Shown: piece by piece, positions 3,067-6,542 of the stretch
How the letters are laid out: every line of letters begins with the position of its first letter
How positions within the stretch are numbered: the stretch's first letter is position 1
Origin: Acidobacteriota bacterium
GTDB lineage: Bacteria > Acidobacteriota > Blastocatellia > Pyrinomonadales > Pyrinomonadaceae
DNA length: 6,542 nucleotides
Direction: 5' to 3'
Assembly (NCBI GenBank): GCA_029777145.1
Contig: JAKOSS010000392.1
Coordinates: 1-6,542 of the forward strand
Program-made: the position numbers and the translations under genes
Notes under the pieces: model-generated
Told to the model about the DNA's origin: nothing
Seen by the model: the letters and a program-made list of their open reading frames with translations, nothing else
Databases searched by the model: none

Positions 3067-3285
3067 TCAGGAGCCTGATTCGGATTCTTCGTCTTCCGAA
3101 ACAGCTTCGGCGTCCTGCAGATGAAGACTTCCCGCACCGAGGTTGTAATCGCCTTCGGCCTGAGTCACCGGGTCCGCGGTCAAAATTCCGCCGATCTTCT
3201 CGATCTCACCGACGATCATCTGCCCGACGGCCTCGAGTTTCTCACGCGCCGAATTCTCCTCGTGCTGTTTTTTCTCTTCCGTCAT
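3067..3285 (-). CDS. Small acidic CsbD-like protein
   Basis: A 72-residue hydrophilic protein with no signal peptide or membrane segment. Residues 12-34 form a predicted amphipathic helix. The segment at 26-45, G-E-I-E-K-I-G-G-x-L-T-x-D-P followed by Q-A-E-G, resembles the repeat of CsbD-like stress proteins (G-K-x-x-G-x-x-T-G-D with a following Q-A-E-G). The match is short and made from memory, so treat it as a suggestion. The last 13 residues (60-72) are Glu/Ser-rich and strongly acidic. The ATG at 3285 has no Shine-Dalgarno sequence, but a -10-like hexamer lies only six bases upstream, consistent with a near-leaderless transcript. It is the first gene of a likely two- or three-gene unit with the dehydrogenase 15 bases downstream. 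CsbD-type proteins are linked to general stress, but no molecular function is established. It could instead be an unrelated lineage-specific small protein. Confidence 0.7.
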   Translation of the reverse strand: MTEEKKQHEENSAREKLEAVGQMIVGEIEKIGGILTADPVTQAEGDYNLGAGSLHLQDAEAVSEDEESESGS

Positions 3286-3291
3286 GGCTAA

Positions 3292-3320
3292 ATTTTACAC
3301 CCAAGCGGACGTTATTCGAA
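3292..3320 (-). promoter_or_regulatory. Possible promoter for the small acidic gene
   Basis: On the minus strand a TAAAAT hexamer (3297-3292; five of six to the sigma-70 -10 consensus) sits 17 bases downstream of TTCGAA (3320-3315; three of six to the -35 consensus). The -10 hexamer ends six bases before the ATG at 3285, so transcription would begin at or very near the start codon. The -35 match is poor and this is a by-eye call. Confidence 0.35.
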
Positions 3321-3353
3321 AGTGAGGCGACCATACATCGAATCTGATTTGAG

Positions 3354-3478: not shown

Positions 3479-3856
3479 CTATTTCGCCGCGAGGAACGGC
3501 TTGTATTTCTCGAAATTTACGAACACCATGAACGCCTCGGCGAGCGCGACGCAGATCGCGACCGGCAGCCCGTCGGGCATGACGAACACATGCGTCAGCA
3601 GGATGTTCACCGCGATCGGAAAAAAGACGAGCGTCGCGAGCGGCACGAAATAACCCGAAACGAACGCGATCCCGACCAGAAGTTCGAAGACCTTGACGAC
3701 CGGCAAAATATAACGCGACGCGTTCAATCCCTCGAAAAACGCCTGTTGGCGTTGGTTGAGTTCGGGCGGACCGCCGAGATTCGCGAAGAACGCGATCGAG
3801 GCGAAAAGAAGCAATAATCCGAGAAGTATGCGAACGATCGTTGCGGCGATTTTCAT
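3479..3856 (-). CDS. DoxX-like family membrane protein
   Basis: A 125-residue integral membrane protein with four hydrophobic segments at about 5-25, 50-68, 71-92 and 97-114, the standard DoxX/DoxX-like arrangement. The second segment begins with the family pattern K-V-F-E-L-L-V-G (residues 55-62, with K55, E58 and G62). A short polar loop of about 20 residues (28-48) follows helix 1, and the protein ends in a basic tail. DoxX-family members are poorly defined and have been linked to quinone- or thiol-based redox and sulfur chemistry at the membrane; a specific role cannot be assigned. The ATG at 3856 is chosen because helix 1 starts directly after it. A longer reading frame continues upstream to 4033, but its extra 59 codons overlap the 78-residue gene and encode an implausible Arg/Cys-rich stretch. 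The ATG is only five bases after the stop of that gene, so the two are probably co-transcribed, although no clear Shine-Dalgarno sequence is present. Confidence 0.88.
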   Translation of the reverse strand: MKIAATIVRILLGLLLLFASIAFFANLGGPPELNQRQQAFFEGLNASRYILPVVKVFELLVGIAFVSGYFVPLATLVFFPIAVNILLTHVFVMPDGLPVAICVALAEAFMVFVNFEKYKPFLAAK

Positions 3857-3861
3857 AATGT

Positions 3862-4098
3862 TCAATCGAAAAAATCTTCGGGTAGTTCCTGGCCGTACAA
3901 GCGTTGGTAGTACTGCCGCTTGAACTCGGCCTCGCTGGGAACCGGAGGCAGTGATGTTGCGACAATCTCTCGTCCAGCAACAATCATCTCGGCCATTCGG
4001 CGGCATCTTTCCTGCGGCGCAAGCGACATCCACAGTTTGGACTGCGCGCGTCTGATCCCGGCGTCAGTGTCTGTCAGAAATTGACTTTGCCGTTTCAA
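3862..4098 (-). CDS. Small partner protein of nucleotidyltransferase (putative antitoxin-like)
   Basis: A 78-residue, soluble, charged, probably helical protein with no membrane segment. It starts with TTG at 4098, inside the nucleotidyltransferase gene, giving a 35-base overlap in a different frame; a GGGG stretch lies seven bases before the TTG. A later ATG at 4029 (residue 24) is possible. I prefer the TTG because the preceding stretch D-T-D-A-G-I-x-R-A-Q-S-K-L-W (residues 10-23) belongs to the pattern I recall in small proteins next to such nucleotidyltransferases: a Q-x-x-L-W helix, then [MS]-x-[PA]-x-E-[KR] (here L-A-P-Q-E-R at 26-31), an R-x-M-A-E-M helix and a C-terminal [EA]-x-x-[FY]-x-x-x-x-x-R-L-Y-G-x-E-L end (here ending near R-L-Y-G-Q-E-L at 66-72). 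Function is unknown; the layout suggests a neutralising or co-factor protein for the enzyme. The downstream DoxX-like gene begins five bases after its stop. Confidence 0.75.
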   Translation of the reverse strand: MKRQSQFLTDTDAGIRRAQSKLWMSLAPQERCRRMAEMIVAGREIVATSLPPVPSEAEFKRQYYQRLYGQELPEDFFD

Positions 4099-4639
4099 GT
4101 TGTTGCCCCAATCCTAGTTTGACGGTCCATTCGTTCAAATAAGCTTGGTCCAGAAGGTCATCGGCATTGGCAAGGATCCCTGCAACGTCTTCAATCTGCC
4201 GTTCAGAACCAGATTTCCGCGACCAATCAAGTTTTGCAATGATCAGATCCTCTCTCAAGATCAACCACAGCCGCATATCGCGTGTAAATTCAACCTCTTG
4301 TCTTCGCGAAAACGATACCGTTTCATAGTTGCCGCTTTTCAGTAGGACGCAGTCGATCTTTACCAACTCGCGTTGATGAATCAGGTTAAACATTCCACGC
4401 GCAGAGGTGGCGCGCCTCGCCGATCCGATCGGTATATAGTAATCGCCATCAAACGCAGCGATAAACCGTTGAAGATCTCGCTCGGTCAAGTTAAGTACGA
4501 TGTCAATGTCCACCGTTGAGCGAGGGATCGAATAGTAACCGAGAGCCACCGATCCCGTCAACATGTAGTCCAAGCCGAGCTTCTCAAACCGAGATACGAC
4601 GTCTTTCAGGACATCGATGAAATAGTTATCGCCAGCCAC
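4064..4639 (-). CDS. Nucleotidyltransferase-fold protein (AbiEii/DUF6036-like)
   Basis: A 191-residue cytosolic protein with the polymerase-beta-like nucleotidyltransferase fold. The G-S motif is at 29-30 (T-G-S-V-A-L), followed by R-S-T-x-D-I-D-I-V-L at 40-49, which gives the metal-binding pair D44 and D46. A third acidic residue, D96, lies in the strand V-K-I-D-C-V-L-L. The C-terminal part has R-E-D-L-I-I-A-K-L-D-W (129-139) and S-E-R-Q-I-E-D-V (145-152), the helices typical of AbiEii-like and DUF6036-like members, some of which are toxins of type IV-like toxin-antitoxin or abortive-infection pairs. All catalytic residues look intact. The start is GTG at 4639; the next Met is residue 26 and would remove the helix before the G-S motif. 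A promoter-like region lies just upstream, 31 bases from the end of metH. Sampled blocks of this gene have about 43-53% G+C against about 53-70% in metH, consistent with acquisition by transfer. Target and activity are not known from sequence. Confidence 0.85.
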   Translation of the reverse strand: MAGDNYFIDVLKDVVSRFEKLGLDYMLTGSVALGYYSIPRSTVDIDIVLNLTERDLQRFIAAFDGDYYIPIGSARRATSARGMFNLIHQRELVKIDCVLLKSGNYETVSFSRRQEVEFTRDMRLWLILREDLIIAKLDWSRKSGSERQIEDVAGILANADDLLDQAYLNEWTVKLGLGQQLETAKSISDRH

Positions 4640-4642
4640 ACG

Positions 4643-4674
4643 ACGAATTTATATCAAAATCCACGAATTGTCAG
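4643..4674 (-). promoter_or_regulatory. Possible promoter with spaced direct repeats upstream of the nucleotidyltransferase
   Basis: On the minus strand CTGACA (4674-4669; five of six to the -35 consensus) is followed after 15 bases by TATAAA (4653-4648; five of six to the -10 consensus). The spacing is short; a shifted TAAATT would give 17. The -35 element overlaps the metH stop codon. The heptamer ACGAATT occurs at 4643-4649 and 4663-4669, 20 bases apart, i.e. about two helical turns on the same face, bracketing the core promoter like an operator. Called by eye. Confidence 0.4.
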
Positions 4675-6542
4675 TCGATGTTGAAGTACTTCGCTTCCGG
4701 ATGATGGACGACGATCGCCGACGTCGACTGCTCCGGATGCAGCTGAAATTCCTCGGACAATTCGACACCGATCCGTTCCGGCTGCAGGAGTTCGAAGATC
4801 TTCGACTGATCCTCAAGATTCGGACACGCCGGATAGCCGAAGCTGAAACGCGATCCGCGGTAACCCTGCTTGAAGAGCTTAGCGAGTTCCGGAGAATCGT
4901 CGCCGGCGATCCCGAGTTCTTCGCGGATCCGCTTGTGCCAAAGCTCCGCGAGCGCTTCCGCCGATTCGACCGACAGTCCGTGAAACAGCAGGTAATCCGT
5001 GTAATTGTCTGAGTGAAATAGGTTTAGCGAATGTTCCGACGCCTTGCGGCCCATCGTCACGAGCTGCAGCGCGACGACGTCGGTCCGGTCGGATGCGAAG
5101 TAGTCGGCGATGCAGAGATTCTTCGATCCGCGCTGGTCGAGCGGCTGGCGCGGAAACGTGAACCGCGTCCGCTCGGACGATTCGTCATCGCTCAGAACAA
5201 TCAGATCGTTCCCGTCGGCGCGGCACGGGAAATAGCCGTAAACGAGTTTTGCCTCGAGCAGTTTGTCGCGGATCGCCTTCGCCTTCACCTCGCGGTATCG
5301 AGGATAGACCTCGTTCTCGAGAATTTCGGCGTATTCTTCACTCGACTTCCTTCCCTGCTTGTACTGCCATTGCCCTTTGAACAGCGCGGTCTCGTTGATA
5401 AATTCGAAAACCGTGTTGAGATCGGTGATCTCGACAACCCGGGAGCCATAGAACGGAGCCGACGGCAAGGAGTCGAGACGGGCGACGTTCGACCGGGTCG
5501 TATGCTTCAGACGATTGTCATGCACCTCGCCGCGGCTTGATACGCGCGCCGCGACCATTCCGAGTTTCGCATCCTCGCCGACCAGATCTTCCGAATCCGA
5601 AACAGTGGAAATCACCTCGTGGTCTTTCTCCCCTTCCCCCGCTCGCCCACTCTCCCGCTCACCCGCGCCGCCGCCGGCGATCTCGTCCATAGCGTGCAGG
5701 CCGTCGAAGGCGTCGCGGGCATAGAAGAGCTTACCGCCGTACAAAGGTACAAGGTCGTTGTCGACGTACTTGCGGTTGAGCGCCGCGCCGCCGAGGATGA
5801 CCGGAACGCTGATCCCGCGCTCGTTCATGATCTCGAGGTTGTCGCGCATGATCAGAGTCGATTTCACGAGCAGTCCCGACATCCCTATCGCGTCGCCACC
5901 ATGCTCGTTATAAGCGTGCAGAATGTCCTCGATCGGTTGTTTGATACCGAGGTTGACGACACGATAGCCGTTGTTCGTGAGAATGATGTCGACGAGGTTC
6001 TTGCCGATGTCGTGGACATCGCCCTTGACCGTCGCGAGTATCATCGTCCCCTTGTTCGCTCCCTCGACCTTTTCCATGAACGGCTCAAGGAACTTGACCG
6101 CCGTCTTCATCGCTTCGGCCGACTGCAGGACGAACGGCAACTGCATCTGCCCGGAACCGAACAAGTCGCCGACAGTCTTCATGCCGTCGAGCAGGATGTT
6201 GTTGATGATCTCGAGCGGTTCGTAGGTTTCGAGCGCATTGTTCAGGCTGTCCTCGAGCCCGATCTTTTCGCCGTCGATGATGTGCCGTTTGAGCTTTTCT
6301 TCAACCGGCAGGTTCGAGATGTCGGGTTTGATCGATTTCGCCGTTTTGCCTTCGAAGAGCGTTGTGAATTCGGCGAGAGGGTCGTACGTGCAGATGTCGC
6401 CTTCGAACTTGCGTTTGTCGTAGATCAGTTCGAGCGCGACGTCGATCTCGTGCTCATTGAATCGATTGAGCGGCAGGATCTTCGAGGCGTTGACGATCGC
6501 CGAATTCATTCCGACCTCGACGCATTCGTGGAGAAAGATCGA
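4671..6542 (-). CDS. metH: Cobalamin-dependent methionine synthase, C-terminal half (partial)
   Basis: The last 623 residues of MetH, which transfers a methyl group from methyltetrahydrofolate via methylcobalamin to homocysteine. The frame runs off the right edge, so the homocysteine domain and most of the folate domain are outside the window. Numbering from the first complete codon, residues 1-75 are the end of the pterin (folate) domain (G-M-N-S-A-I-V-N near 11-18). Residues about 81-156 are the helical cobalamin cap. Residues about 165-275 are the Rossmann cobalamin domain with D-V-H-D-I-G at 175-180 (H177 is the expected lower axial cobalt ligand; codon at 6014-6012), S222 in G-M-S-G-L-L, and the G-G of V-I-L-G-G-A at 251-252. 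Residues about 361-623 are the AdoMet-binding reactivation domain with R562 in Y-R-G-S-R and G-Y-P-A-C-P at 569-574. Between the last two domains lies a long, Gly/Glu/Arg-rich linker (about 288-360). The reactivation domain is complete, so the enzyme should be self-repairing with a flavodoxin-type reductant. The TGA at 4673-4671 lies 31 bases before the nucleotidyltransferase gene. Confidence 0.96.
   Translation of the reverse strand, partial: SIFLHECVEVGMNSAIVNASKILPLNRFNEHEIDVALELIYDKRKFEGDICTYDPLAEFTTLFEGKTAKSIKPDISNLPVEEKLKRHIIDGEKIGLEDSLNNALETYEPLEIINNILLDGMKTVGDLFGSGQMQLPFVLQSAEAMKTAVKFLEPFMEKVEGANKGTMILATVKGDVHDIGKNLVDIILTNNGYRVVNLGIKQPIEDILHAYNEHGGDAIGMSGLLVKSTLIMRDNLEIMNERGISVPVILGGAALNRKYVDNDLVPLYGGKLFYARDAFDGLHAMDEIAGGGAGERESGRAGEGEKDHEVISTVSDSEDLVGEDAKLGMVAARVSSRGEVHDNRLKHTTRSNVARLDSLPSAPFYGSRVVEITDLNTVFEFINETALFKGQWQYKQGRKSSEEYAEILENEVYPRYREVKAKAIRDKLLEAKLVYGYFPCRADGNDLIVLSDDESSERTRFTFPRQPLDQRGSKNLCIADYFASDRTDVVALQLVTMGRKASEHSLNLFHSDNYTDYLLFHGLSVESAEALAELWHKRIREELGIAGDDSPELAKLFKQGYRGSRFSFGYPACPNLEDQSKIFELLQPERIGVELSEEFQLHPEQSTSAIVVHHPEAKYFNID
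5629..5660 (-). repeat. Degenerate octamer repeat inside the metH linker
   Basis: Read on the coding strand there are four consecutive eight-base units: GAGCGGGA, GAGTGGGC, GAGCGGGG and GAAGGGGA, purine-rich and flanked by a GGC-rich run (5664-5679). Eight is not a multiple of three, so the units are read in rotating frames and give the low-complexity peptide E-R-E-S-G-R-A-G-E-G-E (fragment residues 295-305) in the linker between the cobalamin and reactivation domains. Confidence 0.65.

Follow-up and report, generated by a model that had tools for sequence, protein, structure and literature searches.

A probable toxin-antitoxin pair of the MenAT1 kind, with the toxin gene first, behind metH in an acidobacterial contig

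The MenAT1 toxin-antitoxin (TA) system of Mycobacterium tuberculosis consists of a nucleotidyltransferase (NTase) toxin, MenT1 (Rv0078A), and an antitoxin, MenA1 (Rv0078B, PF18993) (PMC10435456). MenT1 is described as adding cytidines to tRNA CCA ends and MenA1 as blocking it, lying across two toxin molecules (PMC10435456); MenA1 is also described as inducing self-phosphorylation of MenT1 at T39 (PMC11375011), and phage defence was proposed by the authors as one possibility for MenT1 (PMC10435456). In E. coli, MenT1 is reported to lack toxicity (PMC10435456). The antitoxin gene comes first in the described systems, an arrangement that is usual rather than strictly defining, with 15 of 21 menA1 genes upstream of a menT-like gene (PMC10435456), and TASmania lists Rv0078B/Rv0078A in the order antitoxin to toxin (PMC6504116). 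In this study, we analysed a stretch of 6,542 nucleotides from a member of the Pyrinomonadaceae (Acidobacteriota; contig JAKOSS010000392.1), referred to below as the window, in which an NTase gene (4064..4639, minus strand) is followed by a gene for a small protein (3862..4098, minus strand), the two lying behind metH. We consider it likely that they form a TA pair of the MenAT1 kind, in a branch that has the toxin gene first.

The NTase, a putative toxin of 191 amino acids (aa) with a GTG start, has the intact Gly-Ser and Asp-x-Asp motifs and the third Asp reported in a preliminary description of this DNA: G29-S30, D44-x-D46, and D96 were all found. MenT1 was the closest of the solved NTases compared, both by fold and by profile, ranking top in three measures. 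Its active-site residues T39, D41, K137, and D152 match T42, D44, K136, and D151 of the window NTase by spacing, and these four residues are kept in 58, 59, 59, and 59 of 59 NTases, respectively. Matches to Pfam were weak (DUF6036, E value 2.1e-4, under the cutoff; AbiEii, 0.066), NCBIfam gave no match for either the NTase or the small protein, and PADLOC-DB gave no family for either at an E value of ≤1; in the PADLOC-DB comparison, AbiEii was matched by 2 of 59 NTase relatives. The preliminary description had pointed to AbiEii-like NTases of type IV-like pairs; MenAT1 proved to be the nearer system. A protein search with the NTase returned 70 relatives; relatives also occurred on six plasmid records (29 to 31% identity), and phage records held none at the sensitivity used. 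A literature search for DUF6036 found no paper in the collection searched.

Pairing was followed in 80 loci. One peptide pattern from an NTase alignment (A1, 31 sequences) gave 575 confirmed places, of which the best 80 were kept; their source contigs are labelled Acidobacteria, Verrucomicrobia, Planctomycetes, Nitrospira, Proteobacteria, and others. The small protein lies directly downstream of the NTase in 80 of 80 loci, in 78 by an open reading frame (ORF) rule and in the two missed by that rule (L044 and L062) by direct profile search, with E values of 1.7e-25 and 5.7e-18. A family survey, tallied by hand from match tables, covered 119 genomes from the family of locus L051. Among the NTase matches listed there, each of the 35 strongest (E value ≤3e-56) is directly followed by the small protein; the small protein lies upstream in nine of the next 12, and none is listed for the other three. 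Counted from the small protein, the survey gave 60 matches: a strong NTase precedes 35 of them, an NTase follows 11 (truncated at a contig end in two cases), and an NTase fragment adjoins 3. The preliminary description had allowed that homologues of the NTase might usually lack the small neighbour or that the small frame might show no protein-level conservation. Neither is the case: the neighbour accompanies all 80 NTases and the 35 strongest of the survey, and a profile that excludes the window small protein still matches it with an E value of 1.7e-17.

In an alignment, A3, of the window protein and 69 of its 78 relatives (70 sequences), D10 and T11 are present in 70 of 70, R31 and Y68 in 69 of 70, and R66 and M38 in 66 of 70; no His is among the near-invariant residues. 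Three helices are predicted from A3, with a mean predicted local distance difference test score (pLDDT) of 92. Fold searches with this model returned nothing usable, a result that says nothing about the fold, and the sequence profile found no solved relative. Relatives of the small protein surfaced only as neighbours of NTase relatives: a search of 5.8 billion proteins gave no match at an E value of ≤0.001, with a tool that needs shared 5-residue words. Two loci (L059:5530-6264 and L064:5530-6264) encode a fusion in which the small protein carries an extra C-terminal domain of roughly 150 aa. The frame of 78 aa from a TTG, given in the preliminary description as sharing 35 bases with the NTase gene, exists; its overlap may be too long, because 61 of 78 relatives overlap by 4 bp (41 of 78) or 8 bp (20 of 78). 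By inspection, the usual M-x-D-T start of the family appears to align with a CTG codon at 4077-4075 in the window, so that 4077 is a possible start of this putative antitoxin.

The order reported in the preliminary description, enzyme first and small partner second, is real. We built a tree that combines 79 toxin-first with 18 antitoxin-first NTases and has seven NTases of PF18993 type as its root. The toxin-first sequences form one clade in it (support 0.937), and the small gene comes first in the PF18993 pairs and the bridge group (see below) with an identified NTase. The simplest reading of this tree would be a single switch of order followed by wide spread. In the NTase tree, the window NTase falls in a group of 27 (support 0.933) together with those of L003, whose pair is behind an Lgt gene, and of L014 and L028, whose pairs are behind a SIS/CBS gene; since this group holds pairs behind different genes, the pair has changed place. 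We call the window pair MenAT1-like, and not MenAT1, because its toxin gene comes first.

Homology of the small protein to MenA1 is likely but indirect, because the connection runs through intermediates. PF18993, 'Rv0078B-related antitoxin', is matched by 23 of 70 small proteins scanned singly (E value ≤0.1, best 4.3e-6). Searching 396 genomes of the phylum for PF18993 gave matches in 40, and of the 42 PF18993 loci fetched (L203-L244), 15 have an ORF that also matches the window-type small-protein profile (E value ≤0.01). Eight proteins that match both profiles make up the bridge alignment, A7; their PF18993 match (8 of 8) is how they were selected. A7 aligns with A3 (96.4% probability, E value 1.1e-9) and with the PF18993 pairs (85.4%, 5.8e-6). 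The NTases of eight PF18993 pairs from the same bacterial family likewise align with the window-type NTases (92.6%, 4.6e-7). Seven PF18993 antitoxin and NTase pairs (L203, L204, L205, L208, L209, L214, and L215) lie behind one common upstream gene, whose sequence resembles mtnA, of methionine salvage.

The TA reading put forward in the preliminary description is supported in the form of an NTase closest to MenT1 and a small protein linked to PF18993 by intermediates. For a role in phage defence, also raised there, the analysis yielded nothing on either side beyond the absence of a PADLOC-DB match. MenAT1 and the window pair are alike in NTase fold, in the spacing of the Thr/Asp/Lys/Asp residues, in having two adjacent genes, in a helical partner of about 70 to 80 aa, and, by way of the intermediates, in a family-level link between the partners. 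Several observations weigh on the other side. The window, like each of the 80 loci, has the NTase gene ahead of the small gene, the opposite of the described MenAT1. Pfam gives no match for the small protein of the window, which, unlike MenA1, lies below PF18993 detection; of 10 members given a detailed scan, only 2 match PF18993 (L032, E value 0.0017, with its residues 17-64 aligned to positions 1-51 of PF18993, and L046, 0.027), and direct profile comparison with the eight pairs from the same bacterial family was negative (4.6% probability). MenA1 consists of a long helix and a short one, whereas three are predicted for the window partner. In the survey, 11 of the 60 small-protein matches have no listed NTase nearby, and the 80-locus sample leans to the window's type, because only the best 80 of 575 places from one peptide pattern were kept. 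What carries the case is the NTase fold, its catalytic residues, and the presence of the partner at every locus fetched; the tie to known antitoxins runs through intermediates, and the proposed function is drawn from published work on MenAT1.

By analogy with MenT1, the free NTase would add nucleotides at the tRNA CCA end and halt translation, and the small protein would bind across the NTase active site and hold the toxin. It may also prompt self-phosphorylation of the NTase at T42, which corresponds to T39 of MenT1. With the antitoxin gene placed behind the toxin gene and overlapping it, translational coupling would keep the two products in step.

Other described systems that join an NTase to a neighbouring protein fit less well. 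MenAT3/MenAT4 and AbiEi-AbiEii (type IV/VII, DUF1814) have larger antitoxins with a winged helix; the partner here has 78 aa, three predicted helices, no Pfam match, and nothing like the winged helix plus second domain of AbiEi, and AbiE type IV was rejected. HEPN/MNT pairs share with the window an NTase and a small helical protein encoded by adjacent genes, and they suggest a reversal of roles, in which the NTase is the antitoxin and chemically silences a toxic small protein. NTases are reported to act as antitoxins in HEPN/MNT pairs (PMC7641770). With roles reversed, enzyme followed by small protein becomes the usual antitoxin-first order. We nevertheless regard this as very unlikely: the NTase is nearer in fold to MenT1 than to any other solved NTase compared, the window small protein has no HEPN match in Pfam, and no HEPN family is among the matches of the 70 small proteins. 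The HEPN motif is R-x4-6-H, and the near-invariant residues of the small protein are D10, T11, R31, M38, R66, and Y68, with no conserved His; membership in HEPN/MNT was rejected on these grounds. It is very unlikely, too, that the NTase acts on a small molecule, as ANT(2'')-Ia or Lnu does, with the small protein as an accessory subunit, because MenT1 outscores the small-molecule NTases in three measures and every locus fetched has the small partner, which is linked to antitoxins. Furthermore, the adjoining host genes vary by locus, a poor fit to a pathway enzyme.

Returning to the MenAT1-like pair, we find that the stretch between metH and a saccharopine-dehydrogenase-like gene is a recurrent TA site in relatives. 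Loci L001 and L004 have the NTase-small protein pair between these two genes; at ≤60 bp past metH, genome G010 has the small gene (L089, L138), and genome G032 has a piece of an NTase (L099). Locus L051 carries three copies of a 68-base metH 3' end (3278-3345, 3815-3882, and 5503-5570), the outer ones 87 and 90% identical to the middle one; the first interval holds a RelB/Phd-like and ParE-type pair, and the second a 256-aa ORF with no Pfam match, the NTase, and the small gene. A metH-end pattern was found in 58 of the 119 family genomes, four of which (G001, G015, G017, and G082) have two or three matches per contig. In G082 (L113, reverse complement 4133-4843), an Unstab_antitox/ParE-like pair, its ParE match under the cutoff, lies between metH and a 44-base metH-end copy. 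The DNA from this copy into the next gene aligns with L196 (71%) and L119 (68%), where the metH end directly precedes that gene; the downstream copy marks the old site. Repeated metH ends occur beyond L051 in G015 (L114), G017 (L115), and G082 (L113). The DNA just behind the G082 metH also aligns in L188, L111, L186, and L198, and in the 2.8-kb interval between the copies in L114 (4370-7609), an ORF of 613 aa is accompanied by a small one of membrane type; the two do not clearly form a TA pair.

Flanking repeats are not confined to metH. With up to 1,500 bp scanned on each side (75 of 78 loci with enough flank, and 121 control intervals from the same loci), a direct repeat spans the pair at 16 of 75 loci versus 3 of 121 controls (Fisher P = 2.3e-5), and both copies lie within 350 bp at 13 of 75 versus 0 of 121 (P = 1.9e-6); with full flanks and random intervals, the counts are 10 of 56 versus 12 of 312 (P = 4.6e-4), the loci in these statistics not being fully independent. 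The repeats measure 37 to 191 bp (L009, L011, L012, L015, L025, L029, L032, L036, L037, L038, L048, L049, L051, L061, L067, and L072). Five are clear duplicates of the 3' end of the preceding gene, for a PheS-like protein (L067, where the copy begins one base past the small gene), a PSD1 protein (L012), ThiC (L072), a TyrRS-like protein (L029), and metH (L051); not every repeat is a gene end, that of L015 lying outside any long ORF. A protein-level scan for end copies put 5 of 63 loci above a threshold that was inflated by ThiC loci matching each other's copies. Two familiar explanations were considered. Integron attC sites are unsupported, since no printed repeat copy holds the GTTRRRY core, and plain target-site duplication is a poorer fit where mismatches between the copies concentrate at the third position of codons (136 of 294 over all repeats with an assigned frame, a rough count that used the wrong ORF at some loci, such as L067 and L072).

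It can be envisioned, tentatively, that minimal mobile cassettes without an integrase, each with a copy of the 3' end of a conserved host gene, are what toxin-first MenAT-like pairs, and certain other TA pairs, represent, and that the window pair is one such arrival. Such a cassette would recombine in at the end of a host gene, for example by a single crossover of an excised circle, leaving the host gene whole and a duplicated end behind the cassette. It would then be held in place, as recombination loss between the copies would be punished by the toxin, and target genes would differ among members (metH, thiC, pheS, tyrS, and PSD1 type). In the window, no metH 3'-end copy was found downstream of the pair by motif scan; the best local alignment scored 18, reached by 417 of 500 shuffles, and the protein-level score was 24 against a threshold of 62. 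Arrival by way of a duplicated gene end is therefore only a possibility for the window pair, whose downstream copy may have decayed or may never have been kept. The pair is probably an acquired module placed behind metH. To our knowledge, TA pairs with duplicated host-gene ends on their flanks have not been reported; our literature searches, which were thin, turned up nothing relevant on insertion at the ends of genes, or on end duplication, in connection with TA pairs.

The remaining features of the window provide context. The 3' part of metH (4671..6540, minus strand), encoding B12-binding and activation domains, ends at 4671, and the NTase ORF comes after it on the minus strand. On the other side, a DoxX-like gene (3479..3856, minus strand; Pfam match 3.9e-4, under the cutoff) begins about 5 bp past the small gene if the ATG at 3856 is its start. 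The saccharopine-dehydrogenase-like neighbour is 65 to 72% identical to counterparts on three acidobacterial contigs. The G+C content lower than that of metH, noted in the preliminary description, holds for the NTase gene (48.6 versus 57.5%) and not for the small gene, whose 54.9% falls inside the range of the other genes (53.9 to 62.5%) and is ordinary for the window. The promoter-like element described upstream of the pair (CTGACA-17-TAAATT, 4674-4646) does not rise above chance, with 2 sites versus 0.9 ± 1.0 expected. A 72-aa ORF at 3067-3285 (minus strand; no Pfam match) has counterparts with 48 to 59% identity in L051, L115, L116, and L122, which precede the saccharopine-dehydrogenase-like gene wherever that gene turned up. 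Between the first ORF and a TMEM175-like gene, the intergenic DNA at 721-798 holds many repeated and inverted 'ttcaagatt' words.

MenAT1 was described with 21 menA1 homologues (PMC10435456). The toxin-first branch appears in genomes labelled with many phyla, with small antitoxin candidates that are mostly unnamed by the profile libraries searched. It offers pairs from nonpathogens in which to study the silencing of a tRNA nucleotidyltransferase by a very small protein and to ask if induced self-phosphorylation is a general feature. If confirmed, the duplicated host-gene ends on the flanks would hint at the route by which these pairs move and at what makes their loss difficult.
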